A stretch of 64,000 bases of DNA from NCBI GenBank assembly GCA_027311945.1, contig DAICXZ010000030.1, positions 62,001 through 126,000 of the forward strand, written 5' to 3'. A model generated the notes under the pieces. It saw only the letters and a program-made list of their open reading frames with translations, did no database searches and had not been told where the DNA came from. The position numbers were made by a program, and so were the translations under genes. Origin of the DNA: Erythrobacter sp. (GTDB taxonomy: Bacteria; Pseudomonadota; Alphaproteobacteria; Sphingomonadales; Sphingomonadaceae). Below are positions 2,190-19,845 of this stretch, piece by piece (the stretch's first letter is position 1; every line of letters starts with the position of its first letter).

Positions 2190-5100
2190 TGGCGGACGAG
2201 GTGGACATGCCCGAAGTCGAGGGCGAACCCGAAACCGTGGCCAAGCCCGGTCGGCCCACGTGGCAAAAGGTCGCCCGTTGGGGCGCGCTGGTGCTGGGCG
2301 TGCTCGTGCTGCTGGTGGTGGTGGTTATCATCGGGCTCGATACCAAGGCCGGGCGGCAGTTCGTGGCCGAGAAGGTTGCAGGGCTATCGTTCGAGAACGG
2401 GATGGAGATCGGCATCGGCGAGATCGACGGCTCGCTCTATGGCAACATGGTGATCCGCGATCTCGAACTGCGCGATCCGCAGGGCGTGTTCCTGACAGCG
2501 CCTGAGGTGTCGGTCGGCTGGCGGCCCTTTGCCTTCATCAACAACCATGTCGACGTGCGCGTGCTGTCCAGCCCCCTGATCACCCTCGAACGCTTGCCCG
2601 AGTTCGCCGAAACTCCGCCAAGCGATGCACCGCTGCTGCCCGATCTCGATATCGACATCGGCGCGCTCCGGGTTGACCGGCTGGTTGTCGAGGCCCCGGT
2701 CAGCGGCGAGCGGCGCGTGGCGCAGTTGAGGGGCAATGCGCACATCGCCGAGGGGCGCGCGCAGGTGACGCTGAACGGCGAAACACTTGCGGTCGATGGC
2801 GGCGCGGCGGGCGACAAGCTGGCGCTTGTGCTCGATGCCGTACCGGAGGAAAACCGGCTCGAACTCGCGCTCGATGTCGATGCGCCGACGGGCGGTATGC
2901 TCGCGGCCATGGCCGGGCTGGACGAGGGGCTGAAGCTCACGGCCAAGGGCCAGGGCAACTGGGATCAGTGGGACGGCCAGCTCACCGCCGACCGCGCCGA
3001 GGAATCGGTCGCCCGGCTCGATGTCAGCGCGCGTGACGGGCTGGTGCGCGTGCGCGGCCCGGCGCAGATCGGCTGGCTGTTCGACGGCGCGACCGCGCAA
3101 TTGCTCGCGCCCGAGCTGAACCTTGATCTTGCCGCCCAGCTTGGCGAGCGCAGCGCCGACATTGAAGCGACCGTGGCAAGCGATGCCTTCCGCCTTAATG
3201 CGCAGGGGCTGGTGAACCTCGCCGATAACAGCTTCGACGGGCTGGGCCTCGACTTCGTGCTGACGCGCCCCTCTGCCCTGGCCGATAACCTTTCGGGCCG
3301 GGGGCTGCGCGCCGTGCTGACGCTCGATGGGCCATTTGCGACGCCGTATGTGGACTACAAGCTGGCAGCCGACCGCGTCGTGCTTGACGACATGGGGCTG
3401 ACCGGACTTGCCGCGCAGGGCAGGGCGACGGTCAATTCCGAACAGATCATGATCCCGGTGCAGGCGAGCGTGCGCCGCATCACCGGGCTCGACACGGTGG
3501 CGGGCGGCAGGCTCGAAAACGTGCGGTTGGCGGGCGATCTTGCGATCTCTGGTTCGCGCATCCTGTCGGACAACATGCGGCTGACCTCCAGCCGGATCGA
3601 CGCGGGGCTGATCCTCGTCGCCGATATGTCGACCGGCCTTTACACCGGAGCTATCGACGGGCGGATCGACAACTATCGCGTGGAAAGCGTGGGCCTGTTC
3701 GACATCCGCACCGATGCCGACCTCGAAACCGAAGCGGGCGGCGGCTTTGCCATGACCGGCCGCGTGAACATGCGTTCGACCCAGCTGTTCAACGAGGGTG
3801 TGCGCAATTTCCTCGGCGGCAATGTCACCGCCGCGAGCGACGTTCGCTATGGCGCCGATGGCGTGGTGCGTCTTTCGGGGCTGAGCCTGCGCTCGCCCGA
3901 TGTGCGGATCAACGGCGGCTCGGGCACATGGTCGCCCGATGGCCGGATATCGCTCGATGCGAAGGGCACGACGACCGCCTATGGCGATGTCGGCGTGAAG
4001 CTGACGGGCACCATCGCCGATCCCGACGCCGTGATCACCGCCAGCAATCCGGGCCTCGGTATTGGCCTTGCGAACCTGCGGGCGGGGGTGACCGGCGCGC
4101 CCGGCGGCTATCACCTCGATGCCACGGGTGACACCGACTACGGCCCCCTGCGCGCCGACGTGACGCTCAAGATGGGCAACCAGCTGGCGATCGAGGTGAA
4201 CGATTCCGACTTGGGCGGGATCGGCTTCTCCGGCGCCATCGCGCAAAGCCGCGAGGGGCCGTTCATCGGCCGGCTCAACGCCGAGGGCAGGGGACTCACC
4301 GGCATCGTCCGCCTCGACAGCGCCGAGGGTGTGCAGGAAGCGCTGTTCAATCTGCGCGCGAAAAACACGGTGCTCGATGGCCCGGCGCAGCTTGCCATCG
4401 GTTCGGCGAAGATTGACGGGCGCGTGGTGCTGCATGATCAGCCGCACGTGGTCGCGGCTTTCGACCTGACCCGCACCAGCTTCGGTGCGTTCGATATCAA
4501 TGCCGCCAAGGGCGAGATCAACTATCGCGGTGGCAGTGGCAGCGCCAAGGTGCTGGCCGAAGGCACCAGCGGGGTGCCTTTCCGCATCGGCCTGAACGCG
4601 CAGATGACGCCCGAGCTGTGGCGCGCCGCGATCAAGGGTCGCGCGCGCGGGATCGACTTCTCCACCGCCAGCCCAGCACGCATCGTAGTCGGCGAAGGCG
4701 AATACAAGCTGCTGCCGACGCAGATCGATTTCGGCAACGGTTCGGTGCGGCTCGCGGGCAGCTATGGCGACGGGATGAAGCTGCAAAGCCGGCTCGACCG
4801 GCTGGATCTGGCGGTGTTCAACGCCTTCGTGCCCGATCTGGGCGTGGCAGGCAGCGCCACCGGCTCGCTCGATTTTTCGCAAGCATCGCCCGATACCTTC
4901 CCCGATGCCGATGCGCGGCTCACCATCACCGGTTTCAGCCGTTCGACCGCAGCAACGGTCAGCCAGCCGGTCAACATCAACTTCGTCGGCAAGCTCGAAC
5001 CCGATGGTGGCGAGGCGCGCGCGATCATGCGCCGCCGGGGCAGCGTGATCGGGCGCATGGTGGCCTCTCTCAAGCCGCTCCCGCCGGGCAGTGGCAGCTG

Positions 5101-6430
5101 GATGACCCGCCTGCTTAACGCTCCGCTCGGCGGAGGCGTGCGTTACGATGGCCCGGCCGATACGCTGTTCTCCTTCGCGGGGATGACCAACCAGACGCTT
5201 ACCGGCGGAATCGGCCTTGCGGTCGATCTTGCCGGGAAGGTCGATCAGCCCGAAATGTCGGGTGTGATCCGCGCCAAATCGCTCGCCTACGAGAACCAGA
5301 CCTATGGCACCCGGCTCACCGACATGGCCGTCTCGGCGCGCTTCAATGGCGAGCGGGTCGAGCTGGAGAAGCTTCAGGCCAAGGCAGGCGATGGCACGCT
5401 CGATGCGACGGGGTCTCTGAGCCTCGCCTCGCAGTCGGGATATCCGATGGATGTCGCGGTGAGCCTGCAAAATGCGCAGCTGGCGTCGAGCGGCAACATC
5501 GCCACCTCGGCCACCGGCGACCTCAAGCTTACTAAGGTCGCGGGCGAGACTGCGCTCCTTTCCGGGAAGCTGACCCTGCCCGAGACGCGCTACACGATCG
5601 TGCGCCAGTCTGTTGCCGAGGTGCCCGCGCTGTCGGGCGTGCGCTTTGTGCCGCAGCGCGGGCCGCAGCGCGTGACCGGTGACGAACCCGCCGAACGTGG
5701 GCCCGGCCTGTTGAGCATGGTCCGGCTCGATGTCGAACTCAATGCACCGCGCCGGCTTTATGTGTCGGGTATGGGGCTTGAATCCGAATGGGGGGCGAAC
5801 CTGCGCCTCACCGGCACCAGTGCGGCACCGCGCCTGTCGGGCAATGTCGGGCTCCAGCGCGGTACGCTGGGCTTCGCCGGGCGCTCGTTCGAGCTGCAGC
5901 GCGGCAATATCGCGTTCCTGGGCGGGAGCGAGATCAACCCGACCATCGAAATCCAGGCCACCGAAACCATTGAGGGTGTGGCGGTTAATGTCGGCATTGC
6001 AGGCCGTGCCTATGATCCGCAGATCACCTTCACCTCTGTGCCGAGCCTGCCGCAGGACGAAGTGCTGGCCCGCGTCTTGTTCGGCAGTTCGATCGGCAAC
6101 CTGTCGGCGCTCGAGGCCGTGCAGCTGGCGGCCTCGCTCAATTCGCTGCGCGGGACGGGCGGGGGCCTGAACCCGCTTGGCGCATTGCGCTCGGCAACCG
6201 GGATCGACCGGCTCCGCGTGCTCGGCGCCGACGACACCACCGGGCGCGGCACGGCGCTGGCTGCCGGGCAGTATCTGACAGACGACATCTACATCGAGTT
6301 CATCACCGACGCGAAGGGCTTCACCGCCACCCAGCTCGAAGTGGCGCTGACCCGCACGCTTTCGGTGCTGAGCCAGGCTGGCGGTTCGGGCGAGACCAAC
6401 GTCAACCTCCAATACAGCCGCGACTACTGA
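2189..6430 (+). CDS. tamB: TamB, translocation/assembly module inner-membrane protein (AsmA-like)
   Basis: 1413 aa, single N-terminal TM, long beta-rich repeats, conserved C-terminus (GSSIGNLSALEAVQLAASLNSL, DDIYIEFITDAKG, LQYSRDY). Directly follows tamA. Confidence 0.9.
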   Translation: MADEVDMPEVEGEPETVAKPGRPTWQKVARWGALVLGVLVLLVVVVIIGLDTKAGRQFVAEKVAGLSFENGMEIGIGEIDGSLYGNMVIRDLELRDPQGVFLTAPEVSVGWRPFAFINNHVDVRVLSSPLITLERLPEFAETPPSDAPLLPDLDIDIGALRVDRLVVEAPVSGERRVAQLRGNAHIAEGRAQVTLNGETLAVDGGAAGDKLALVLDAVPEENRLELALDVDAPTGGMLAAMAGLDEGLKLTAKGQGNWDQWDGQLTADRAEESVARLDVSARDGLVRVRGPAQIGWLFDGATAQLLAPELNLDLAAQLGERSADIEATVASDAFRLNAQGLVNLADNSFDGLGLDFVLTRPSALADNLSGRGLRAVLTLDGPFATPYVDYKLAADRVVLDDMGLTGLAAQGRATVNSEQIMIPVQASVRRITGLDTVAGGRLENVRLAGDLAISGSRILSDNMRLTSSRIDAGLILVADMSTGLYTGAIDGRIDNYRVESVGLFDIRTDADLETEAGGGFAMTGRVNMRSTQLFNEGVRNFLGGNVTAASDVRYGADGVVRLSGLSLRSPDVRINGGSGTWSPDGRISLDAKGTTTAYGDVGVKLTGTIADPDAVITASNPGLGIGLANLRAGVTGAPGGYHLDATGDTDYGPLRADVTLKMGNQLAIEVNDSDLGGIGFSGAIAQSREGPFIGRLNAEGRGLTGIVRLDSAEGVQEALFNLRAKNTVLDGPAQLAIGSAKIDGRVVLHDQPHVVAAFDLTRTSFGAFDINAAKGEINYRGGSGSAKVLAEGTSGVPFRIGLNAQMTPELWRAAIKGRARGIDFSTASPARIVVGEGEYKLLPTQIDFGNGSVRLAGSYGDGMKLQSRLDRLDLAVFNAFVPDLGVAGSATGSLDFSQASPDTFPDADARLTITGFSRSTAATVSQPVNINFVGKLEPDGGEARAIMRRRGSVIGRMVASLKPLPPGSGSWMTRLLNAPLGGGVRYDGPADTLFSFAGMTNQTLTGGIGLAVDLAGKVDQPEMSGVIRAKSLAYENQTYGTRLTDMAVSARFNGERVELEKLQAKAGDGTLDATGSLSLASQSGYPMDVAVSLQNAQLASSGNIATSATGDLKLTKVAGETALLSGKLTLPETRYTIVRQSVAEVPALSGVRFVPQRGPQRVTGDEPAERGPGLLSMVRLDVELNAPRRLYVSGMGLESEWGANLRLTGTSAAPRLSGNVGLQRGTLGFAGRSFELQRGNIAFLGGSEINPTIEIQATETIEGVAVNVGIAGRAYDPQITFTSVPSLPQDEVLARVLFGSSIGNLSALEAVQLAASLNSLRGTGGGLNPLGALRSATGIDRLRVLGADDTTGRGTALAAGQYLTDDIYIEFITDAKGFTATQLEVALTRTLSVLSQAGGSGETNVNLQYSRDY

Positions 6431-6603
6431 TGCGCCTTCGCCTTATCCCCGTCGTGATGGTGGTGCTGCTGTCAGCCTGCAATCAGGAGCCTACCTTCGA
6501 GGAACGCTACTCCGAGGCGGAGGCGACCATTTCGCAGCAGGCGCAGTCGATCGACTCCGATCTTGAGCAAACGGGCGAGCCTGCTCCCAGCCCGACGCCT
6601 TAA
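6430..6603 (+). CDS. Small (57 aa) putative lipoprotein
   Basis: Below the ORF-track cutoff. ATG overlaps the tamB stop (ctactgATG). Translates as MRLRLIPVVMVVLLSACNQEPTFEERYSEAEATISQQAQSIDSDLEQTGEPAPSPTP with lipobox LLSAC. Confidence 0.72.
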   Translation: MRLRLIPVVMVVLLSACNQEPTFEERYSEAEATISQQAQSIDSDLEQTGEPAPSPTP

Positions 6604-9500
6604 CTGCCGACGTAAACGAAGGGTGCCCAATAGGCGGGATGCTGCAAGCGTGGCTCGCCGCTATCGTCGATCAACGCCAGCACCGCGCGGCGCAGGCCCT
6701 CGGCAGGCGCGATGCCCTCGCGGTAGTAGCTCTCGACCGTCGGCACGGTGATCGCGCGGGCGACGTCGTCGGCCACTTCCCAGTGCGAGACCAGCAGGTT
6801 GCGCGCGCCGGCATAGAGGAAAGCGCTGGCAAGCCCTGAAAGCCCCGCCGCGCCGGGCCGGTCGGGCCCGCCGGTGTTGCAGGCCGAAAGCACCACCCAG
6901 TCGGCATCCATATCGAGCGCGGCGATCTCGCTGGCGGTGAGCAGGCCATCGTCGCCATCGTTGGGGGTGAGCACCAGCGCCGGTTCGGCAAGACCTGCCA
7001 GATCGCCTTCGAGCAGCCCGTGCGTGGCAAAGGCGATCACCTCGGCGGGCTGGGCGATTTCGGCCAGTACACGGGTTTCGCGCGCATCCTCGCCGGTCAG
7101 CAGGACGGTCTCAGCGGTATCGAGCGCGCGCGACAGGGCGTTCAGTTCTGCCAATGCTTCGGGCAGCGGCGGGAGGTCGGCCACGGTGGCGCCAAGTGCG
7201 AGCATGCGCGAGGAGCGCAAGGTGGTCAGCGCCGTGCCGCCGAGTACCGGCGCGCCAACTGCGACGACGCGCGCGGCACGAGGGCTTTCGGGGCTGGGTG
7301 CGCGCGCCAGTGTCGAAAGCGAGGCAAGGGTCGAGAGGCTGTGATGGCGGATCACCCAGTCGGCCTCGGCCAGCGAGGGGGCGGCAGGCGCAAGCGCGGC
7401 GAAGGGAATGCGGGTCAGCGCGCCGCCGGCAGCAACCATGATGTGATCGGCCCCTTCGAGCAACTGCCCGCTCTCGCCCTCGAACAGCGCGGCGAAAAGC
7501 GCGGCACCGGGGGCAAAGTCGTAGGCCGGTTGGGCGGATGCCTTGCGGGCAGGGGCGGCGAGCACACCGCGCATCAGCACATCACCTCCGGCCAATGCGC
7601 CGCGCATGTTGGCCGCGAGGGAGGAGACTTCGCGGCTGTCGAGGGGGGCCAGATGCATCGAGTGCGCATCCTTCGTGGCCACCAGCACGGCCAGCCCGGT
7701 TGGCAGCGGCTGGGCCAGCAGCACGGCATCGCCTTCACCAAGGCTCGCCTGTACAGCGGCGAGGGTGATTGGCTCGGAGCCGGTGAAGCTGGCGGGGTCG
7801 ACAGCACGTCCAGCCTCGGCCAGTTCGCTGCGCGCGCTGGCGATCTGGGCACGCATCTCGGCCATCGTCTCGGGAGCGACGCCGATACTCATCGCTTCGA
7901 GCTGCTGGTTGGCGAGGCCGCGCAGCGCCTCGGCCTTGTCCTGATAGCTGCGCACGGCCAGCGCATCGGCCGCGCCAAGCCCGCGTCGGAAGGCCGCCAA
8001 CTGCACCGAGCGGTCGGCCTTGGTGGCGAGGCCATATTGCGCAAAGCGGAATGCGGCATCGAAGTCGCCTGCATGCATGGCCGCATCGAGCGCCCAGTCA
8101 TTCGCCTGCCCGAGAATGGCGAGCTGCACCGCGTCGGGCTCTCCCGAGGCGGCGATGGCATCGCGGTTGGCAATCAATTGGGCGTGGGCGGCGGCAACCT
8201 CGTCGATCCCGCCGATTCCGGCGCGAATGCCGTATGCGCCGAGCATGATCTGGCCGGTCAGGTCTTCCCACAGGGCGGTGTCGTCGCCAGTCGAGCGCCC
8301 CTCCTGCGCTGCCAGCTGAGTGACATAGGCATCCCGCGGGCGGCCTGCCTCGGCATAGAACTCGGCCAGAGTTTCCTGCCCGGCGATGCGGCGATAGCTC
8401 GCCGGTTCCATCGTTTCGGCGCGCAGGGCATCGGCGGCTTCGGCCACCATGATCGCCTCGTCGAGCCGCCCGAGATCGCGCAGCGCGTGGGCGCGCGCAT
8501 GCTGGGCATAAAGCGTAAGCTCACCCTTCGGGCCATGGCCTTGTTCGATAAAGGACAGCGCTTCATCGACCGTGGCGAGCGCATCTTCCGCCGCGCCCTT
8601 CTTGATCAGCGTCTGCGCAAGACTCAGCCGCATACTGGAGGCCATGCCCATGTCGGGCTCTTCAGCGCCCATCGCCAGCGCAATGGCGCGGCGCGAGAAA
8701 CGTTCCGCATCGTCGAGCAAGCCGCGTTCCGCCGCGCGGATCGACAGCGAATTGTAGGCATTGGCCAGCACCGGGTGATTGGGCGGCAGCAGCGCTTCCA
8801 TTTTCGCCGTCAGCCGCTGTCCTTCGCTCAGGGCCTTGTCGCTCTCGCCCAGCGCGGCCCAGTAGGTGGGGGTGTTGGTGAGATAGCTGATCAGTTCGGC
8901 AGCGGGGGCTTCGAGCCGGTCGATCAGGGCCTCGACCTCGGCCATGTAGGTGATGGCGGCGCGCGACTGTCCGTCTGCGTTGAGGATATACGCAGCGTTG
9001 TTGAGGCTGGCAGCGAGCCCTGCGATAAAGCTCTCGTTGCCCGGCTCATGCTCCAACAGCTTGCGCCGCGCGGCCAGCACTTGCTCGCTGATGGCGCGCG
9101 CAGCGGCAAGATCGCCCATGCGCACGCGCGCCGCCAGCAGCGCGTTCATGCCCGACAGGCGATTGGGGAGGTATCCCTCACCCGCTGCCTCAAGGATGGG
9201 CAGGATCGCCTCAATCCGTGCCGCTCCCTCGGCGAAGCGCCCTGCGTTCAGATCGGCGATAGCCAGCTCATAATCGATCAGCGCCAGCTCGGGGTGGCCT
9301 TCGGGATAGAGCGTTTCAGCAAAGGTGCGCGCCTCTTCCAACGCGGCGCGGAAGGCGGGTTCGTCGGTGTGCGGATCGATCTGGAATGCACTCTCGAGCA
9401 TGGTGTCGAGCTGCGCGCGGGCGGCCTCGCCAGGCTCGGCGTGTGCTGCGTGGGCCGCAAGCAGAAGGGCCAGCCCGGCCAAAGGCAGACGAAGATGCAT
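6600..9500 (-). CDS. Secreted TPR + CHAT-domain (caspase-fold) peptidase
   Basis: Signal peptide MHLRLPLAGLALLLAAHAAHAE; TPR-like helical middle; C-terminal CHAT dyad motifs FATHG (His) and LSACNTG (Cys), then LVSHWEVADD. Confidence 0.88.
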   Translation of the reverse strand: MHLRLPLAGLALLLAAHAAHAEPGEAARAQLDTMLESAFQIDPHTDEPAFRAALEEARTFAETLYPEGHPELALIDYELAIADLNAGRFAEGAARIEAILPILEAAGEGYLPNRLSGMNALLAARVRMGDLAAARAISEQVLAARRKLLEHEPGNESFIAGLAASLNNAAYILNADGQSRAAITYMAEVEALIDRLEAPAAELISYLTNTPTYWAALGESDKALSEGQRLTAKMEALLPPNHPVLANAYNSLSIRAAERGLLDDAERFSRRAIALAMGAEEPDMGMASSMRLSLAQTLIKKGAAEDALATVDEALSFIEQGHGPKGELTLYAQHARAHALRDLGRLDEAIMVAEAADALRAETMEPASYRRIAGQETLAEFYAEAGRPRDAYVTQLAAQEGRSTGDDTALWEDLTGQIMLGAYGIRAGIGGIDEVAAAHAQLIANRDAIAASGEPDAVQLAILGQANDWALDAAMHAGDFDAAFRFAQYGLATKADRSVQLAAFRRGLGAADALAVRSYQDKAEALRGLANQQLEAMSIGVAPETMAEMRAQIASARSELAEAGRAVDPASFTGSEPITLAAVQASLGEGDAVLLAQPLPTGLAVLVATKDAHSMHLAPLDSREVSSLAANMRGALAGGDVLMRGVLAAPARKASAQPAYDFAPGAALFAALFEGESGQLLEGADHIMVAAGGALTRIPFAALAPAAPSLAEADWVIRHHSLSTLASLSTLARAPSPESPRAARVVAVGAPVLGGTALTTLRSSRMLALGATVADLPPLPEALAELNALSRALDTAETVLLTGEDARETRVLAEIAQPAEVIAFATHGLLEGDLAGLAEPALVLTPNDGDDGLLTASEIAALDMDADWVVLSACNTGGPDRPGAAGLSGLASAFLYAGARNLLVSHWEVADDVARAITVPTVESYYREGIAPAEGLRRAVLALIDDSGEPRLQHPAYWAPFVYVGS

Positions 9501-9580: not shown

Positions 9581-12500
9581 TCAGGGAACGGACACCCCGA
9601 ACACGGCGGAGCCGTCAATCTGCTTATCGAAGGTGGTGTTTCCGAACGTATAGACCACGCCCGCATAGGTGCCGCCGTCTCCCGCCAGAAAACCGTTGAT
9701 CGTTGCGCGGCAATCGCCGCTGCCCGCGCAGGCCGGGCCGCTGCCCTGCGCCAGCACCGGCTGGTTATACTCGGTGAAGAAGCGCATGTTGCCGGTGTCG
9801 AGTGCCATTCCGCCAGCCATTGGATCGGCCACACCGCCCGGCGTGTTGATGGCATAACTGTTGCCGCCAATCGCCACATCGAACTCCACGCCGACCTTGG
9901 GCGTGCTGCCAAAGGCCACGGCCAGCTCGCCCGAGAAGCTGCCCGGTGCCAGCGATCCATCGCGGATCGTTGGCGCGGTCGATCCGATGAGGGCATATTG
10001 CACGGTGCCCGAGGTGGGGAGGTTCGTGGCCGGATCGCCCGCCACGACATGCCAGCCGCCATTGGCGGGCAATTCGATGCCGTCCTGGTCGGCGTAAAAG
10101 CGCCCGCCCGTGGTGCCGCCCGCCCAGCGCGTCCAGCCGATCACGCCCGCCACGCTGCCGCTGTCGTGCTGGGTGTTGTTGCCGATGGTGGGGCGCTCGT
10201 CTTCGGTGGTCGAGGAATTGAGTTCCCAGACATAGGCGAGCGGTGCGCCGGTCGTGGTGTCGTAGGTCACCCGCGAATCCTCGCGGCTGTCGATCCCGAC
10301 CGTGGAAGACGAATAGATCACGATCTGGTCGGTCTCCTCGGTGCCGGTGGGTGGCGGCACCACCTCGCCGGGATCGTAGGTCCCGCCGAAAGCGGCCGCG
10401 CCGCCAATCAGCGGGAGGTCCGTTGACGTGTCACGGACCAGGTAGGCCAGCGAAGCATAGGTGCCCCCGTCGCCGCCGAGGCGGCTTGAGAAGGTCGCTC
10501 CGCAGGTTGCCGACGATGCGCATGCTGCGCCCGACCCCGTCATGGTAACAGGTGCATTGCCGTAGAAATTGCCGACCGAAGACCCAATGACGCTGGGCGC
10601 TGCGACGCCGCCCTCGGTGGCGAAGGCGTAGCTCGCATCGCTCATCGTCACCGTCGCTTCGAGACCCAGCATGGGTGAGCTGCCCAGCGTCACCGCCATC
10701 TGCCCGGCGAAGGTGCCCGGTGCGCTGCGGCCGTCCTGATAGGTCGGCTGGGTGGCGCCGAGCAGGGTGTAGTCAATCCGCCCGGAGGCAGGCAGGTTCT
10801 CGATCACCGGGATCAGCGCATAGCCAAAGCCGCTGTCTGGTCCGTACAGGCTGCCGAACGAACCGGTGTCGCTTTCGATGCTGCCGCCGTTGAACCGGCC
10901 GACCTGCCAGTTGGCATCGCCGGCAAGATCGGCCACGGCCAGGTTGCCGCGGCGGATATAGTCGATCTGGTCGTTGACTGTAACGCCATAGGCGCGCACC
11001 AACCCGCGGCTATCGGTGACGATGGGGAGATAGGCGATCGAAGTGACGGCCGCTTGCTTACGGTTCGCGCCGCCAGTGTCGACATAGCTCAACATCCCGA
11101 TGTCATCGGCGAAGGGTGCGGTAAGCGAGCCGCTTGCAACGCCCGCGTCAACGCCCGTTTCCAGCCCGGCCAGATCGGTCGAACCGAATATCGCGGCCCC
11201 GAACACGTCGGTGCCCATGTTGCCGCTCAGGGTATAGAACGTGGAGGCGATGGTGCGGAAATCGTCGGTCAGCTGGCCGAACAGGCGCAGGCTGCACGTT
11301 GCGCCAGCCGGGCAGACCGCGCCTTCACCTGTAAGCGGGGCGACCCCGAACAGGCCCGGACGGCTTATCTGCACCCCCGATGTCGCGACCGCGTCCAGCC
11401 CGCCGGTGGTGCTGAACGTATAGACGCTGTCCATGGTGAGCGAGCCTTCCATGGCGAACTTGGGCGAGATGCCGAAGTCGACGGCCAGCTCAGCCGTGAA
11501 TGTGCCCTCGCTCAGCGACCCGTCGAGGGCCACGACCGGGGAGCTTTCGATGAGCTGGTAAGTGGCGCTGCCAGCCGTTGGCAGGAACAGCGCCGGGTCG
11601 CTCACCGCAACCACAAACGCGCTTTGCCCTGGGGCGATCGTGCGTTCGGTGGTCGCCGAGGTGAGCGTGCCTTCTCCGTAACGGGTGATGATCGCATCGT
11701 CGTTGCCGAACTGCGAGATCAGCGTTGCAGTGCCGAGGGAGAAGACATCGTTGACCGTACTCACCGTGTTATCGGAAATTTCCGTGAACCCGCCATCGGC
11801 GCGCCTTGCGGCAGGGCCGGAGATCGAACTCGTGAGGTGGAGTACCGTGTTGGCTCCGCTGGTGCCGGGCACGGCGACAATTGCCGAAACCCTTGTCAGA
11901 TCGAAATTCGGCCCGACCTCGTAATTGCCGCCGCCGCTGCTGCCGCCACCGCTGCTAAGCGGATCGCCCTTGGCAAAGCCCGCCGTGCCGAGCACTTCGG
12001 CCCCGCCCGCATCCTTGGCGATATAGGAGATCGCCAGTTCCGCAGCCTCATCGCCCGATATGTAACCGCGGATTTCGCCGGTGCATCCGCCCGAGCCCTG
12101 ACAAGCAGCGCCGGTGCCGATCACCTCGATCAGGCCGCCGGTGGTTTGCAGCACTTCGCCGAAGAAGAAGCCCGGTGCCAGATCTTCGCGCAGGGCAATG
12201 CCGTTCTGCGCGGTCTGGGCGATGCCGCCGATGGTTTGCAGGGTATAGCTGCGATCGGCGAAATCGGTTTTCAGTTCCGCACCGACGCGGGTGGTCGAAC
12301 CGAAGCTGATCGCCGCCTTGGCCACGCTGAGCGAGCCGGCCTCGCCGCCGGTGAGCGTCGGGTTGGTGCCGCCGACGAAATCGTATTCGATGAGCCCCGT
12401 GGCGGGCATGTTCGTCGCCATCGGACCGGCAATGACGTGGATACCGTTGGCCCCGAGGTCGAGTTCGGTGTTCGCCTGCGCATAGGCGGTGCCATTGACC

Positions 12501-14029
12501 CAGCGGCCCCACGCGACACCTCCATCGCTGATGCGCCCGGCTTCGATCAGCTCCGCCTCGCCGATAGCGGCGCGGGTGGTGCCAAAGTTGAAGAACAACG
12601 GTGCGCCGGTCGCCTCGTCATAGACGACATTGGCGCGGCTGCGGTCGATCTGCCCGTTGAACGGGGCGAGTTCGGTCTTGCTGCCGCGCAGGGCCATGAA
12701 CTGGTTGCTCGCCAGCGTGCCTGCGGGAGTGGGGAATTCCGGCGGCGGGGGCAATTGCTCGAACTCGTCGATGTTGCCCCCGTTCTGCAGGAAGGTGAGG
12801 TAGGCTCTGAGGAACTGCGCCTGCCCGGTCAGCAGCGTATCGAACAGGCCGCGCGAGGAGAGCGCTTCGAGATAGGCCTGAAGCGCCTGTGCGTTGAGCC
12901 CGCCGAACTCGCTAGGCACCCCGCCCGAGAGCACGAAACTGGCATAGGCCTGTACCGCTGCGACATAGGCGGCGATGGCGTCTTCGCTCAGCAGGCTGGC
13001 AGGCGCGACGAACTCGCTCGGCACGCCGCCGCTGCGCAAATAACCGAGATAGGCCGAAAGCAGGTTCTGCTGCGCCGCGCCGATCCGGCCAAGCTGCCCG
13101 GTGAGCTGGAGATAGTCGATATAGCTGTTCAGCTGCGACAGGTCCGCCCCGGTATAGTCGCTGGCAAAGCCGCCGTTGGCGAGCAAGGTCAGATACTGGC
13201 TGACGAGGCTGGCATAGGCGCTCTGGAATTCGCCGATCTGGCCGTTGTTGGCGAGATACTGGAGGTACGCGTTGACCAGTAGGGGGCTTGCGCCCTCGAA
13301 GCTGGCGCCGCCGCCCAGCGCCGCCGCAAGCCTGTCCGAATAGGCGAGCAGCCGGGCGACATCGCCGCTCGGCAAACGCGCCACCGCAGGGTTGGCGAGG
13401 TATGCTTCGACACCGCGTGCCGCCGCCACCACATCGCCCGATGCGCCTACCCCGGCGAGACCTTCGCCAAGCGTCACCGCAAGGCCGTTCATGGCGGCCT
13501 GCGCGATGGTCTGGCGGGTGGTGGCGAAGGGTGATCTGCGGGTGCTGCCGTTGGGGCTGGGCTGGGCGGCATTGGCGACCACGCGCGAGCTGCTCGAACC
13601 CACGGCCGCAGCCCAGTTCTGACCTGGCCGATAGGTGCGGGTGGCTGTGCCGGTCGTCACCTGCATCGTGCCGCCCATCACGTTGCCGGAGAGCTGGCCG
13701 TCTCTCACCGCCAGCGAGCCGGAGCCGGTCACCGTGGCCTCTGCTCCGCCCGGCAGGCGCAGCACGACCCCCGAGCCTTCCGCCCCGGCGACGGTCACGC
13801 CGCCATTGGCCAAGGTGATCTCCTCACCATCGAGCGAGAACTCGGCTGGCCCCACAATCGAAACCACCGCGCCTGAATCCATGCGGATCTGCGCGACCCC
13901 GCCTTCGGCGACGGACTGGCTGCTGGCGGTGTTTCCGCTGCTGGTGAACAGGATGTCGGCTGCCTGCGAGGGAGCCGAAGCGACGGCGAGCGTGGCTACG
14001 CCCAGAAATAGTGCTTTGCGCATGTTCAA
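9581..14029 (-). CDS. Giant secreted FecR-domain protein with helical repeats and four tandem beta-rich (TbpB-like?) modules
   Basis: Signal peptide MNMRKALFLGVATLAVASAPSQAA; FecR-like segment GGVAQIRMDSGAVVSIVGPAEFSLDGEEITL; short AYLxYLxxGG repeats; four divergent ~220-250 aa modules ending GDGGTYA...(A/G)xFG. Confidence 0.82.
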   Translation of the reverse strand: MNMRKALFLGVATLAVASAPSQAADILFTSSGNTASSQSVAEGGVAQIRMDSGAVVSIVGPAEFSLDGEEITLANGGVTVAGAEGSGVVLRLPGGAEATVTGSGSLAVRDGQLSGNVMGGTMQVTTGTATRTYRPGQNWAAAVGSSSSRVVANAAQPSPNGSTRRSPFATTRQTIAQAAMNGLAVTLGEGLAGVGASGDVVAAARGVEAYLANPAVARLPSGDVARLLAYSDRLAAALGGGASFEGASPLLVNAYLQYLANNGQIGEFQSAYASLVSQYLTLLANGGFASDYTGADLSQLNSYIDYLQLTGQLGRIGAAQQNLLSAYLGYLRSGGVPSEFVAPASLLSEDAIAAYVAAVQAYASFVLSGGVPSEFGGLNAQALQAYLEALSSRGLFDTLLTGQAQFLRAYLTFLQNGGNIDEFEQLPPPPEFPTPAGTLASNQFMALRGSKTELAPFNGQIDRSRANVVYDEATGAPLFFNFGTTRAAIGEAELIEAGRISDGGVAWGRWVNGTAYAQANTELDLGANGIHVIAGPMATNMPATGLIEYDFVGGTNPTLTGGEAGSLSVAKAAISFGSTTRVGAELKTDFADRSYTLQTIGGIAQTAQNGIALREDLAPGFFFGEVLQTTGGLIEVIGTGAACQGSGGCTGEIRGYISGDEAAELAISYIAKDAGGAEVLGTAGFAKGDPLSSGGGSSGGGNYEVGPNFDLTRVSAIVAVPGTSGANTVLHLTSSISGPAARRADGGFTEISDNTVSTVNDVFSLGTATLISQFGNDDAIITRYGEGTLTSATTERTIAPGQSAFVVAVSDPALFLPTAGSATYQLIESSPVVALDGSLSEGTFTAELAVDFGISPKFAMEGSLTMDSVYTFSTTGGLDAVATSGVQISRPGLFGVAPLTGEGAVCPAGATCSLRLFGQLTDDFRTIASTFYTLSGNMGTDVFGAAIFGSTDLAGLETGVDAGVASGSLTAPFADDIGMLSYVDTGGANRKQAAVTSIAYLPIVTDSRGLVRAYGVTVNDQIDYIRRGNLAVADLAGDANWQVGRFNGGSIESDTGSFGSLYGPDSGFGYALIPVIENLPASGRIDYTLLGATQPTYQDGRSAPGTFAGQMAVTLGSSPMLGLEATVTMSDASYAFATEGGVAAPSVIGSSVGNFYGNAPVTMTGSGAACASSATCGATFSSRLGGDGGTYASLAYLVRDTSTDLPLIGGAAAFGGTYDPGEVVPPPTGTEETDQIVIYSSSTVGIDSREDSRVTYDTTTGAPLAYVWELNSSTTEDERPTIGNNTQHDSGSVAGVIGWTRWAGGTTGGRFYADQDGIELPANGGWHVVAGDPATNLPTSGTVQYALIGSTAPTIRDGSLAPGSFSGELAVAFGSTPKVGVEFDVAIGGNSYAINTPGGVADPMAGGMALDTGNMRFFTEYNQPVLAQGSGPACAGSGDCRATINGFLAGDGGTYAGVVYTFGNTTFDKQIDGSAVFGVSVP

Positions 14030-14038
14030 GTATCCCTC

Positions 14039-15352
14039 TTAGAATTCCGCGCGAATGCCGAAGCTCGCGGTGAAGCGCTCGTAATCGTAGAGCGCGATGT
14101 TCGACCAATTGCGGGTGTAGGTGACGCGTGGGCGGGCATAGACATTGCCCGTCAGCCGGAACTTGAGGCCGATGTTCGCGTCGACCTGCTCGTCCTCACG
14201 CGCGGTGAGGAACAGCGGATCGTCGGCGCCGTAGCCGCGGATCTGGCCGCCGATCCCGCCGACCACGGCCAGACGCTCGCCCGCCGGGAGTTCGAACGCG
14301 AGGTTGGCGCGGCCATAGCTGTAGGACAGGTGATCGCCTGCCGATCGGCGGGTCTCCTCCCGTCCGCCTGCTGCGCTGAGCACGAAGGTGCGCGCGGCAT
14401 AGGTCACACCCGCGCCATACCGGTTGGAATCGCGCAAGGGATCGTTGTCGAAGTTCTGGCGGAAGAACTCGCCCGAGACCGACAGGGCGCGCCCGCCTTC
14501 GAGCCGGTGTGTATATTGCCCGATTACCCCGAACGCTTGCCGGAAGCTGTTACCGCCGAGCCAGAACTGCTGCCCCTGCAACGAGAGCGAGACGACATCG
14601 CGGCTGGCCAGCGTATGCGCGACCCCGGCGGTGCCGGTGGCAGCGCTCTGGTCGAACCCGGCTTCCAGGTTCTCGCGGATATTGGCGAGCAGCGAACCGA
14701 ACAGGCGCGTCTGGCGTGAGACCCCGCTCACTGCCGAGACCCCGCCAACCGCCTCCAGATAGGCGGCGTCGGTTGCCTGCGCGTTGGCGCCAAGCTGGCC
14801 GGGACCGAAGCCTGCAAACAGCGGGATCACGATGGAATCGAGATCGGTCGCACCGTTGACGTTGCTGTCGAAGCCCGCCGTCAGGTCGAGGAAGCCCGAA
14901 ACATTCGAGCCGCCGCCCGCGATCTGGCGGTCGTAGTTGCGCACGATCTGATCGAACCGCTGGCGCACCGGATCGGGCAGCGAGGGATCTTGCATCGCGG
15001 TATCGAATTCGGCCCGGGCGGTGTCGATATCGCCCGCCAGCGCATAGGCGCGCGCCAGTTCCGCGCGGGCCTGTGCATTGTCCGGCTGAACGGCGAGCAC
15101 ACGCTGGAGTGCGATGACCGCTTCGGCCGGGTGGCCACTGTCGGCCGCCGCAATGCCGAGAGCGAGATCGTAGTCGGCATCGCCCGCGCGGGTGGCTTGC
15201 AGCGGTATCAGCAGCGCGAAGGCCTCTTCCGAGCGGCCCGCCTGATGGAGCGCGAGGGCATTGGCGACGGCATCGTCGACCTCCGCCAGAGCCGGCCCCG
15301 CCGCGCAGACGAAGCCCGCGCAGGCAGTGGCAAACAGGACAGGTCTTAGCAT
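14039..15352 (-). CDS. TPR + C-terminal beta-barrel outer membrane protein, surface lipoprotein assembly modifier (SLAM/DUF560)-like
   Basis: Signal peptide, N-terminal TPRs (GHPAEAVIALQRVLAVQPDNAQARAELARAYALAGD), then alternating amphipathic strands ending ...FTASFGIRAEF (terminal aromatic). Confidence 0.75.
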   Translation of the reverse strand: MLRPVLFATACAGFVCAAGPALAEVDDAVANALALHQAGRSEEAFALLIPLQATRAGDADYDLALGIAAADSGHPAEAVIALQRVLAVQPDNAQARAELARAYALAGDIDTARAEFDTAMQDPSLPDPVRQRFDQIVRNYDRQIAGGGSNVSGFLDLTAGFDSNVNGATDLDSIVIPLFAGFGPGQLGANAQATDAAYLEAVGGVSAVSGVSRQTRLFGSLLANIRENLEAGFDQSAATGTAGVAHTLASRDVVSLSLQGQQFWLGGNSFRQAFGVIGQYTHRLEGGRALSVSGEFFRQNFDNDPLRDSNRYGAGVTYAARTFVLSAAGGREETRRSAGDHLSYSYGRANLAFELPAGERLAVVGGIGGQIRGYGADDPLFLTAREDEQVDANIGLKFRLTGNVYARPRVTYTRNWSNIALYDYERFTASFGIRAEF

Positions 15353-15422: not shown

Positions 15423-16766
15423 TTACGAAACCTGACGATGATTGCGTCGCGGCAGGATCAACTCGGCCAGCGCGCCCTTTTGACCATTGGCGAGGCTGAA
15501 GCTGCCGCCGTGCTGGCGAGCGACCGCGCGCACGATGCGCAGGCCGATGCCATGCCCGCCCAGCGTAGAGCGAGGGGACTGGTCGGCCATCGGCGCAAAG
15601 CCGGGCCCTTCGTCGGCCACGCGGATCACTGCCGCATCCTCGCGGCAGGCAAGTGCCACGCGGATCGCGGCGCCCTCGGGCGAGACCTTGAGCGCGTTGT
15701 CAAGCAGGTTCGCCACCGCGCGCACCACCAGCGAGGCGTTGCCTGTTGTCATGCATGGGCCAAGCTCACGCAGGATGCGCACATTGTGCTCTTCCTCGGC
15801 CACCGCTTCGTACAGTTCGATCGCATCTTCGAGCGCCTTGGCGACGTCGAACGGCTCGACCGACAGCGCGCCTTGCGTTTCGATCTCGCGCAGTTCGAGC
15901 AGGGCGTTGAAAGCTTCCATCAGCCGCGCCAGTTCCTCACTGGCGAGCCGCACCTCGGCGGCAGGGCGCGTATCGCCGAGCATATCCTCCAGCCGCGACA
16001 GCCGCGCCTGTACCCGTGCGAGCGGCGTGCGCAGGTCGTGCGCAAGGCCGTCGGCGGTGTCACGCAGGGCTTCGAGGCGGCGCTGCAATTCGTCGAGCAT
16101 GGCGTTCATATGGGTGGCCAGCGTGCCCAGTTCATCGTTGGTGGTGACCGGGTGGCGCGCGGTGACCTCGCCTTCCTCAACTCGTTCGCAGAGGGCGTTG
16201 AGCCGCGCGATCCTGCGGCTGATCGCGGCCCCGGTGATCCAGGCCACGAGGCCAGTGACGGCGACGATTACCGCCACGATCGCCGCGCCCCAGCGCCAGA
16301 AGGCCTGCGTCAGCGGCCCGGTCGAGGCAACACGGTAGGCGACCAGCACCGCGCTGCCGTCACCAAGGCTGCGGACCACCCCGGCATAGGCGGTGCCGCC
16401 TTTGCGGAAACTCACATAGCGGGGTGCGAGCGGGTCGAGATCGCTCGGCCAGCTTGCTGCTCGCGCCTGGGTGCCATGCACCGCAATGTAGCGCGCCTGA
16501 CCGGATTCGCGGGCCATCGCTCCCAGCTCCCCCAGCGCGGCGAGCGCCAACCCGGCCATTTCCGGGTCTTCGCCAAGGCCGGGCAGTTTCTGCGCCAGCT
16601 CGGCATATTCGCGCTCGGCATTCTCGGCGGCGCGCAGCTCGCGGGCGGTGGTGTCGATCCGCCACAGCACCAGCGTCACCAGCGCCACCGCCAGTGTGGT
16701 CGCCAGCGCCATGGTCAGCGCGGCGAGGATCGGAATGGGCACCTTGCGGGAGAGCGTGCGCTCCAT
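15423..16766 (-). CDS. Sensor histidine kinase (HAMP, HisKA, HATPase_c)
   Basis: H-box AHDLRTPLARVQARL; N-box VANLLDNALKVSP; G-boxes DEGPGF and LGGHGIGLRIVRAVARQHGG. Confidence 0.93.
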   Translation of the reverse strand: MERTLSRKVPIPILAALTMALATTLAVALVTLVLWRIDTTARELRAAENAEREYAELAQKLPGLGEDPEMAGLALAALGELGAMARESGQARYIAVHGTQARAASWPSDLDPLAPRYVSFRKGGTAYAGVVRSLGDGSAVLVAYRVASTGPLTQAFWRWGAAIVAVIVAVTGLVAWITGAAISRRIARLNALCERVEEGEVTARHPVTTNDELGTLATHMNAMLDELQRRLEALRDTADGLAHDLRTPLARVQARLSRLEDMLGDTRPAAEVRLASEELARLMEAFNALLELREIETQGALSVEPFDVAKALEDAIELYEAVAEEEHNVRILRELGPCMTTGNASLVVRAVANLLDNALKVSPEGAAIRVALACREDAAVIRVADEGPGFAPMADQSPRSTLGGHGIGLRIVRAVARQHGGSFSLANGQKGALAELILPRRNHRQVS

Positions 16767-16793: not shown

Positions 16794-17579
16794 TCAGCCT
16801 TGCTGGCTCAGGTCGCGCAGCATCAGGCCCTGGCTGCGGACCGAGAGGATCAGCGGGCGCAGCGCCTCGTCAAGCTCGCCGCTCGCCGCCTCCAGCTTCT
16901 TGCGCAGGCGCGAGACATGCACGTCGATGGTATTGGCCGCGTTCGAGGGCATGAAGTTGTAGTCCGACCAGCAGCGGCTCCACAGCATCGAACGGGTGAC
17001 GGGCAGGCCAGTGCTTTCGCCCAGCACCTGCAGGATCGCGTGCTCGCGCGGGGTGAGGTCAAGCGGCTGGCCGAACAACTGCGCCGACATCGCGCGCGAA
17101 TCGATCAGCAGGGGGCCGTTCTCGATCCGCTCGGCCTGTTCGGGCGTGGCCCAGCGCGCGCGGCGGCGGATCATCGCGGCAACACGCGCCAGCAGCTCGG
17201 TGTCGGAGACGGGCTTCACGATGTAGTCGTCCCCGCCTGCCGCGAGCCCTTCCACCTTCTGCCGCTCGGTGCCGAGAGCAGTGAGGAACAGGGCGGGGGC
17301 ATCGGCGGAAGGGCCGCCGCTTTCGCGGATGCGTTCAAGCGCGGAGACCCCGTCAAGGCCGGGCACCTGCCGGTCGAGGATCAGGACATCGTAAGCCTTC
17401 TCACGCGCCTGCGTCAGCGCGGCGGTGCCGCTCGAAACCACGTCCATATCGGCAAAGCCGTGGCGAGAAAGCGCCGAGGCGAGACTGCCCGCCAGCTCGG
17501 CCTCGTCTTCGAGCACGAGCGCCGAACACCCGGCAAACAGGCAGCGCAGGCGTTCGTCGAGAGCATCGTCGCTGATCAT
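16794..17579 (-). CDS. OmpR-family response regulator
   Basis: Receiver with LVLEDE, LILDRQVPGLDG, KPVSDTELLARV; C-terminal winged-helix LTPREHAILQVLGESTGLPVTRSMLWSRCW, HVSRLRKKLE. Confidence 0.93.
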   Translation of the reverse strand: MISDDALDERLRCLFAGCSALVLEDEAELAGSLASALSRHGFADMDVVSSGTAALTQAREKAYDVLILDRQVPGLDGVSALERIRESGGPSADAPALFLTALGTERQKVEGLAAGGDDYIVKPVSDTELLARVAAMIRRRARWATPEQAERIENGPLLIDSRAMSAQLFGQPLDLTPREHAILQVLGESTGLPVTRSMLWSRCWSDYNFMPSNAANTIDVHVSRLRKKLEAASGELDEALRPLILSVRSQGLMLRDLSQQG

Positions 17580-17680: not shown

Positions 17681-18370
17681 ATGGATATTGCGCGCAGACC
17701 GACATTCCCGCTGGCAAGGGCAATGTTTCTTGCCGCGCTGGGAATCGCCACGGGCGCTTGTGTCGCCGGGGACCGCTCGGCTCCGGTCGAGGCGTTTGCA
17801 GAATCTGGCAGCCCCGTGGCGCGCGCCGAGCTGGCGCTACGGCTGGCGAGCGAAGCGCGCCGCTCGCACGATGCCCGCGCGATGCTGGTGGCCGCGCGAA
17901 TGATGCTGACGAGCGGCACGCGTCCCGCCGTGCTCGAAGATGGTGCGCTGGTGGCCGATGTGGATGGAGACCCGGTCGCTCACGGCTGGGCGCGCGAGGC
18001 CATCGCACTGGCGGGCGATAATGCCACGCTTGTTGGCGAGGCCGAGCAGGTGCTCGCGATGCGTCCGCGCGGGGTGCTTCGCAGCAGCCTCGGCGGTGGC
18101 CCCTTGCGTTATGTGCGGCGGGTCTCGGCCAACGAAAGCGTGCGCTTCGACATCAACACCCAGCCGCAGGTGCCTGCGCGCCTCGCCGCGATTGGCGATG
18201 GCGATGCGCGGATCGGTCTGATGGTGAGCGCCGGAAAAGCGCGCATCTGCGACCAGCGCGCCCGCTCGACCCATTCGCTCTGCACCTGGCAGGCGGCGAG
18301 CGAGCGGCACGATGTCACGCTCATCAACGCGGGGCCGCTGGCCAGCGATGTGATGATCCTGTCGAACTAG
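17681..18370 (+). CDS. Small exported protein (putative lipoprotein), unknown function
   Basis: 229 aa; N-terminus MDIARRPTFPLARAMFLAALGIATGACVAGDRS; stop overlaps the convergent caspase stop (CTAG). Confidence 0.7.
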   Translation: MDIARRPTFPLARAMFLAALGIATGACVAGDRSAPVEAFAESGSPVARAELALRLASEARRSHDARAMLVAARMMLTSGTRPAVLEDGALVADVDGDPVAHGWAREAIALAGDNATLVGEAEQVLAMRPRGVLRSSLGGGPLRYVRRVSANESVRFDINTQPQVPARLAAIGDGDARIGLMVSAGKARICDQRARSTHSLCTWQAASERHDVTLINAGPLASDVMILSN

Positions 18371-19698
18371 TCGCCGACCGCGAATTCGATGATCGCCGCG
18401 CGCTCTGCTGCGGTATCGCCCTTGCGCCAGAACAGCAGCAGGCGGTCGGTCCCCGCCGGATAGGATGCGCCGGTGGCCGGATCGTGGTTGACGAAGGTGA
18501 AATCGAGATGTGCGGGCGAGCGGCCATCGAGATAGAGCCCGCCGATGGGCGAGAGGAGGGTGCGGAGGCCCGCGCTGTCCACATACCAGGCATCGACGAA
18601 GCCCGGCTCGGTCGCGGCAAGCGCGAGCATCACCGCATCGCAATGATCGAGGGGCAACCGCTGCGCCGGATCACGCAGTTGCGGCGGGCCTGCGGATTCG
18701 ATGTCGCACCCCGGCGCGGCGGCGGAATGGAGGTCGAGTGACCATTCGGGCAGTGCCATGGCCCGCGCGCTCGCCACCAGATCGGGCAGCTCTCCAGCAA
18801 AGAAGAACGCGCTTTCGATTGCGCCGCCCGCCTCGCTGGCGGGGCCGGGCAAGGCCGAGCGGGCTTGCTGGCGGCGCTGCTCGCGCACCAGCTCCACGAA
18901 GTCGGCGGGCGATGCGGCGAGGGCAGGGGCGAGGCTGCGCGTGAATAGCCCACCCTCGGGCGTGTCCCATGCGGCATCGCCGGTCGGCCCGGCGGCGAGC
19001 GTTACGAGCCGTCCGCTGCCTGCTGGCATGTCGTCCTCCACCCACGCGGCATCGCGGCGCTGTGCCGAGCGCAAGGTCCGGTTGGGCACACCGAGCACGG
19101 TGGGTGAGAGATTGCGCACCGCCATATGCTCACCCCCGCGCATCGCGCCGCCCGAGGCGCAGCTGTCGATGGCGAGGAACACGTCGGCCCCGCGCTCGCG
19201 CATGGCGCGCACGGCGGCGGCGAGTTCGTCGTCGACCAGCGCGCCGGGCAGCGCGCCATCGCGCCACTCGCCCGCATCGGCCAGCAGCAGCACCTCATCC
19301 TCGCCATCGGCTTCGTCGCGCGGGCCGGTATCGGGGATGCGGCTGCCGTGGGCGGAAAAATAGAGCACGATGCGCTGGCCCGGCATGGCGCTGTTGGTGA
19401 GCCGGGTGAGTTCTTCGCGGACTCGCGCCAGCGTCGCCGCTGCGCCTTCGAGCCCCACGGTTTGTGCTTCCGCGCCCACGAAGCCCCTGAACGCGCCGCG
19501 CATAGCCACCGCATCGGCGCGCGCTCCGGCAAGAGCATAGGGCGCCAGCGCCGGATCGGTGAACTCCGACACGGCGACGATCAGCCCCGCAACCGGGCGC
19601 GACGCCTCTTCCGCGCGCGCACCGTGGGCGGCGAGCACGATAATCGCCGCGAGCGAGCATAGGGAGAGGCGAGCGGCCACTATCACGCCTGCCGGCAT
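18367..19698 (-). CDS. Secreted caspase-family (p20 / peptidase C14-like) protein
   Basis: Likely start at MPAGVIVAARLS (track extends to 19737). Signal peptide; dyad motifs LYFSAHGSR (His) and FLAIDSCASGGAMRG (Cys). Confidence 0.86.
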   Translation of the reverse strand: MPAGVIVAARLSLCSLAAIIVLAAHGARAEEASRPVAGLIVAVSEFTDPALAPYALAGARADAVAMRGAFRGFVGAEAQTVGLEGAAATLARVREELTRLTNSAMPGQRIVLYFSAHGSRIPDTGPRDEADGEDEVLLLADAGEWRDGALPGALVDDELAAAVRAMRERGADVFLAIDSCASGGAMRGGEHMAVRNLSPTVLGVPNRTLRSAQRRDAAWVEDDMPAGSGRLVTLAAGPTGDAAWDTPEGGLFTRSLAPALAASPADFVELVREQRRQQARSALPGPASEAGGAIESAFFFAGELPDLVASARAMALPEWSLDLHSAAAPGCDIESAGPPQLRDPAQRLPLDHCDAVMLALAATEPGFVDAWYVDSAGLRTLLSPIGGLYLDGRSPAHLDFTFVNHDPATGASYPAGTDRLLLFWRKGDTAAERAAIIEFAVGD

Positions 19699-19845
19699 AG
19701 CACGGACGTGGCCTAAAGGCATGGCCCACAAGCACAATGTCAGGCTTCGTCAGGGCTTGTGGCCTTGCCGCTCCACCGCCACGCAAAGGCGCACAGGCCT
19801 GACAATCATATTGCATTGCAGCACCAAGGGGCGTCTAATCCCGCC

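Follow-up and report, generated by a model that had tools for sequence, protein, structure and literature searches.

The window analysed here is a stretch of 64,000 nucleotides from an Erythrobacter sp. genome. A SLAM-type outer-membrane protein of 437 aa is encoded at 14039..15352 (-) and a giant ORF of 1482 aa follows at 9581..14029 (-); both frames are present as a sequence-only reading of this DNA had described them. The same reading had placed the start of the giant about 9 nt past the SLAM stop, in agreement with the TAA, 9 nt and TTG found there; the giant starts either at this TTG (14029) or at an ATG (14023), with 15 nt of spacing in the latter case. A histidine kinase with HAMP, HisKA and HATPase_c domains (15423..16766, -) and an OmpR-type response regulator (16794..17579, -) were assigned by Pfam, and both are conserved neighbours. 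The SLAM-giant-kinase block is flanked by a TPR-CHAT protein (6600..9500, -; Pfam CHAT, 5e-47) and a caspase-like protein (Pfam Peptidase_C14; 18367..19737, -). Each has a signal peptide by eye and an intact His/Cys dyad (ATHG and SACNTG, SAHG and DSCASG, respectively), and these clan-CD-type peptidases are possible candidates for processing of the giant. A small exported lipoprotein-like protein (17681..18370, +) gave no Pfam match and has homologues at the same locus type. Of the annotated window genes around the giant, none was identified as coding for a heme oxygenase or a TonB receptor, and a TonB receptor was seen near four of the other SLAM-giant loci. Further along, a TamA-like Omp85/POTRA gene (48-2189, +; Pfam) is directly followed by a TamB-like gene (2189-6430, +; 1413 aa), and both are convergent with the CHAT gene.

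The giant begins with a putative Sec signal peptide (13958..14029, -; LNMRKALFLGVATLAVASAPSQA/A), which, read by eye, is clear, of the SPI type and without lipobox. A lipobox was absent from every giant when the sequences were read by eye, in line with the earlier description of a non-lipidated protein. Pfam and NCBIfam gave no match on the window giant. Iterated profiles resolved the giants into successive parts: behind the signal peptide come a head of ~190 residues, 0-12 helical repeats of ~75-78 aa each, and 1-4 modules of ~250 aa. Most same-genus relatives are 1470-2228 aa long, while the giants of one genus have only 802-812 aa and one C-terminal module. The nearest orthologue of the window giant, and the only one from the contig scan, is 67% identical and belongs to Aurantiacibacter xanthus. 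No plasmid copy of the giant was found. All of the eight cysteines of the window giant lie in the modules, as a single CX5C pair in each. As a separate observation, most same-genus giants (L068-L078) carry a conserved C-terminal tail of 66-93 aa (WxRW...APGxxxxxxxGIxFSxEQLxxLE) past the last barrel, and the window giant is without this tail.

The FecR-like beta head covers residues 22-209 (13403..13966, -) and was delimited by a family profile in 35 giants and by its fold match; it follows the signal peptide at once, and an anti-sigma domain and a transmembrane helix were both absent from the giant. Pfam FecR (PF04773) gave 0 matches on the window giant and E 9e-4 on one orthologue. It was passed by the distant same-architecture relatives L202 (38.4 bits) and L211 (40.7 bits; cut-off 24), minimal proteins with FecR above the cut-off and a single module, adjoining a SLAM. 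The profile-profile comparison of the head with the genome's own sigma-regulator FecR proteins gave no match, which leaves the distant relatives, on the sequence side, and the fold to carry the case for FecR. In the model of head plus stalk (mean pLDDT 64.5, which is moderate), the head matched the PupR CCSSD (6ovk) with Z 14.1 over 114 residues and the anti-sigma structures 4m0h and 4m0n with Z 13.5, and the next unrelated chain had Z 4.8. The FecR head claimed before, faint in the window sequence, is backed by the structure of the head model and by Pfam in the distant relatives, and the head is predicted to have a FecR-like fold. Between head and modules lies an alpha-helical repeat stalk (residues 225-427; 12749..13357, -), recognized by a repeat profile and by helices in the model (pLDDT about 80), which had been missing from the earlier description. 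Its repeats of ~75-78 aa are composed of ~24-aa units, with three repeats in the window giant and up to 12 in its relatives, and autocorrelation gave peaks at 24 and 48 aa for the stalk, with relatives peaking at 76-79 aa.

Four tandem handle-barrel modules occupy the C-terminal part: module 1 at residues 434-686 (11972..12730, -; CX5C 643/649), module 2 at residues 697-949 (11183..11941, -; CX5C 906/912), module 3 at residues 963-1215 (10385..11143, -; CX5C 1170/1176) and module 4 at residues 1228-1482 (9584..10348, -; CX5C 1434/1440). These profile-defined limits agree with those drawn by the sequence-only reading. The profile used for scoring was built from other genomes, with the window and its nearest relative excluded, and it gave 128, 97, 148 and 214 bits on modules 1-4, respectively, while the best of 200 shuffled copies reached 4.9; the pairwise identity among the four modules is 21-33%. 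Module 4 was modelled by AlphaFold2 from an alignment of 46 modules (pLDDT 93.9, pTM 0.91). In the Foldseek search with this model, the first 43 matches were all SLAM-cargo types (HphA/hemophilin, TbpB, fHbp, NHBA), with a best E of 2.7e-5, and lipocalin and porin matches appeared only from E 0.02. By VIA-align, the best solved matches were the TbpB C-lobe, NHBA, HpuA and LbpB; the TbpB C-lobe aligned with Z 13.1 over 192 residues, from the handle to the last strand, and the plain eight-stranded barrel Ail aligned with Z 11.8 over 123 residues in the barrel half only, a middling Z being expected from any eight-stranded barrel. Both methods thus rank SLAM cargo best, as the proposed likeness to TbpB/hemophilin lobes had it, and a fold unrelated to TbpB-like barrels was not what the module 4 model gave. 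The modules are predicted to share the TbpB/HphA-like handle-barrel fold, module 4 from its model and modules 1-3 via homology. None of the 46 modules passed the curated cut-off of Pfam TbpB_B_D (PF01298), the comparison of the modules with PDB sequences gave chance matches only, and the profile-profile match to local TbpB_B_D proteins was weak (53.7%, 26 columns). The module profiles found nothing significant in the ORFs around the genus's canonical SLAM loci. A bridge lipoprotein, L206, was matched by the module profile with E 2e-6 and passes Pfam TbpB_B_D across the same residues.

The 437-aa neighbour has a TPR part (~37-121), a barrel (~162-437) and the C-terminal motif TRNWSNIALYDYERF. 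Its score with Pfam SlipAM was 15.9 bits, below the cut-off of 22, with the DUF2860/BBP2 porin models scoring about equal. The N-terminal TPR was matched by TPR_16 (E 4e-8) and weakly by TPR_Slam, which also matched in 12 of 12 orthologues. By hhalign, the giant-linked SLAMs were aligned end to end, TPR and barrel, with a reference set of PF04575-positive SLAMs, most of them adjoining TbpB_B_D proteins (99.96%, E 4.5e-39, 383 columns), and the profile of the reference SLAMs matched giant-linked SLAMs with E 1e-46 to 1e-58. SlipAM was above the cut-off in G005, G021, G480 and G769; the SLAMs of the distant pairs L202 and L212 score 44.2 and 37.6 bits, respectively (cut-off 22). A C-terminal stretch is common to both SLAM groups, TRNWSNIALYDYERF in the window and YERNWSTVEIYDYDRV in L083. 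Judged from these alignments, the protein upstream of the giant is a member of the SLAM/T11SS family (SlipAM, DUF560), divergent and genuine, and not an ordinary porin, so that its first description as SLAM-like was well founded. Canonical SLAMs with multi-TbpB_B_D proteins also occur in the window's genus (L083, L084, L085), and both systems therefore coexist, e.g. in G014 and G029. At L083:6992-14185 and L085:6141-9333 the canonical SLAM accompanies large PT-repeat multi-TbpB_B_D proteins with frames to about 1250 aa. The window genome gave no further SlipAM or TbpB_B_D match.

In all 37 genomes whose locus could be read, the SLAM gene immediately precedes that of the giant on the same strand; 12 of these genomes are from the genus and 19 from the family, and wider searches contributed six. 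Where measured, the two genes overlap or are at most 32 nt apart. The pairs span 17 genera in four families of the Alphaproteobacteria. Among 61 genomes each close SLAM relative (E < 1e-100) was paired with a giant, and no other cargo candidate was common to the SLAM-giant loci. Searches of 397 family genomes with the head and with the modules gave the same 22 genomes, apart from one extra per side (in one case a weak match, in the other a short contig), and the system is patchy, being present in about 6% of family genomes and in 3 of 385 genomes of a class-wide sample, the window's own included. Three distant relatives from other families (L202, L211, L212) have a single module paired with SLAM. 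The SLAM tree, and with less confidence the head tree, joined the window pair to pairs from other genera, apart from most of its own genus. SLAM and giant are thus apparently co-inherited or co-transferred; row L053 of the SLAM tree is on an unreliable long branch, and this tree is compatible with either one or separate origins of the L202/L211/L212 pairs and the main clade. The histidine kinase and response regulator adjoin SLAM-giant in 31 of the 33 loci with enough flank, and the linkage of SLAM with giant and of both with the two-component system is established by computation. The TPR-CHAT protein is a neighbour in 13 and the caspase-like protein in 6 of 31 loci. At L177:2980-5160, L184, L186, L187 and L202:5423-7621 a HisKA_3 kinase (~730 aa) and a LuxR-type regulator were seen instead of the OmpR-type pair. 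The N-terminal half of these kinases had no Pfam match, and an assignment of the 727-aa kinase of L177 as a CHASE2 kinase was dropped, as Pfam gives it no support.

Taken together, the giant is probably a non-lipidated type XI cargo of the upstream SLAM and a predicted multivalent binding protein with repeated ligand-binding lobes. Known Slam1 cargo are exported by Sec, kept unfolded by Skp and then passed through the SLAM barrel (PMC9090332). In the proposed mechanism, Sec would carry the giant across the inner membrane, it would be held unfolded in the periplasm, and the SLAM barrel would pass it outward by recognising the handle-barrel module(s), as with TbpB and hemophilin. We infer a surface or extracellular site after this export, where each of the repeated modules would fold into a TbpB-like lobe held shut by a single disulfide. 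Carried by the helical stalk behind the FecR-type head, these lobes would together serve as a multivalent ligand binder. The adjacent histidine kinase and response regulator may control the locus or answer to the giant. Against the cargo reading, the thresholds of Pfam FecR, TbpB_B_D and SlipAM were all missed by the window proteins. That a SLAM could handle 1450-2200 aa is extrapolated: the cargo in the literature contain one to three barrels (PMC12282271), and no description of one so large was found.

Other explanations were weighed against this one. The modules could reach the surface via SLAM while a periplasmic FecR head signals to the adjacent histidine kinase, comparable to FecR/FecA. 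The FecR-family fold and the two-component system in nearly all loci would suit such trans-envelope signalling, and the Burkholderia BiofilmReg operon (PMC5192318) is a known case of FecR proteins next to a two-component system. However, a cleavable signal peptide precedes the head, the giant lacks both a transmembrane and an anti-sigma part, no gene next to it in the window was identified as an ECF sigma factor, the conserved two-component neighbour may be a mere regulator, and TbpB is exported as a whole chain, and we regard this explanation as unlikely. Since a two-component system is linked, a signalling role is possible also for an exported giant: in such a surface-signalling system a SLAM-exported multi-lobed antenna would act through its FecR head on the dedicated two-component system, with the periplasmic CHAT/caspase-type peptidases cutting or gating it, which seems quite unlikely.

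It would also be conceivable that the giant is a periplasmic FecR-type envelope protein, whose barrels bind in the periplasm while SLAM exports another cargo, since the usual place of FecR and LysM-FecR proteins is the periplasm or the inner membrane (PMC5192318; established knowledge). The strict pairing with SLAM, the lack of any other shared cargo candidate at the loci and the SLAM-cargo fold of the modules make this very improbable. Least credible of all, and already disfavoured, is the idea that the giant's neighbour, superficially similar to SLAM, is an ordinary outer-membrane protein of the TPR-plus-porin type: the sub-threshold SlipAM score in the window, about level with the porin models, speaks for it, but the full-length alignment, TPR included, with SLAMs beside TbpB_B_D proteins and the orthologues exceeding the SlipAM cut-off speak against it.

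As SLAM cargo, the giant would represent a new cargo class for type XI secretion, invisible to Pfam-based cargo surveys because modules and head both score below the Pfam thresholds. SLAM cargo would extend to non-lipidated proteins of 1450-2200 aa with up to four lobes, environmental sphingomonad SLAMs would gain strictly paired candidate cargo, and type XI secretion would be tied to a conserved two-component system. According to PMC8406197, the C-terminal barrel targets secretion; two points become testable, whether export needs more than one C-terminal barrel and whether the stalk and the FecR domain can pass through SLAM. In open-licence papers we found no report of FecR-SLAM, FecR-DUF560 or FecR-CHAT, so that earlier work elsewhere is possible, and FecR is unmentioned in the PMC12282271 survey and in the 2021 network paper. 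Within this literature the four-barrel, FecR-headed, non-lipidated architecture, which had been put forward as new, was not found described, and it points to a type of protein, predicted to be at the surface or secreted, that has so far gone unrecognised.

Compared with known systems, the head shares the FecR beta-domain fold of the FecR/PupR anti-sigma proteins (Z 14.1), while the giant, unlike these regulators, has neither anti-sigma domain nor transmembrane helix and is linked to a two-component system. The BiofilmReg operon (response regulator, LysM/FecR, CHASE2 histidine kinase; PMC5192318) likewise joins an exported FecR-domain protein to a two-component system, but SLAM and barrel modules are not reported for it and CHASE2 was absent from the kinases tested here. 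TbpB and LbpB, which are SLAM-dependent (Slam1 cargo), have the same tandem lobes of handle and eight-stranded barrel; in contrast to the giant they are lipidated, have two lobes, lack a FecR head and helical stalk and occur in an iron-protein receptor context. The soluble T11SS cargo HphA, hemophilin and HrpC are non-lipidated handle-barrel proteins and the best Foldseek match, but have one lobe of about 250 aa and a heme-uptake locus with a TonB receptor. In the largest published cargo survey, with ten architectures (PMC12282271), the multi-barrel groups are marked by proline-rich N-termini and a recognisable TbpB_B_D; in the published group nearest to the giant, several TbpB barrels follow proline-threonine repeats. 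These 'Sphingomonas surface proteins' are sphingomonad, SLAM-linked and contain two to three handle-barrel pairs, but differ from the giant in their proline-threonine repeats, disordered loops, recognisable TbpB_B_D, partial lipidation and lack of FecR; the N-terminal proline-threonine repeats with TbpB_B_D that define them were not found in the window giant. The L083 and L085 proteins look like members of this group, and their SLAMs split from the giant-linked SLAMs in the tree. Environmental SLAM-family proteins of the Sphingomonadaceae without characterised cargo form T11SS subcluster 1C (PMC8406197), which may include the window SLAM.
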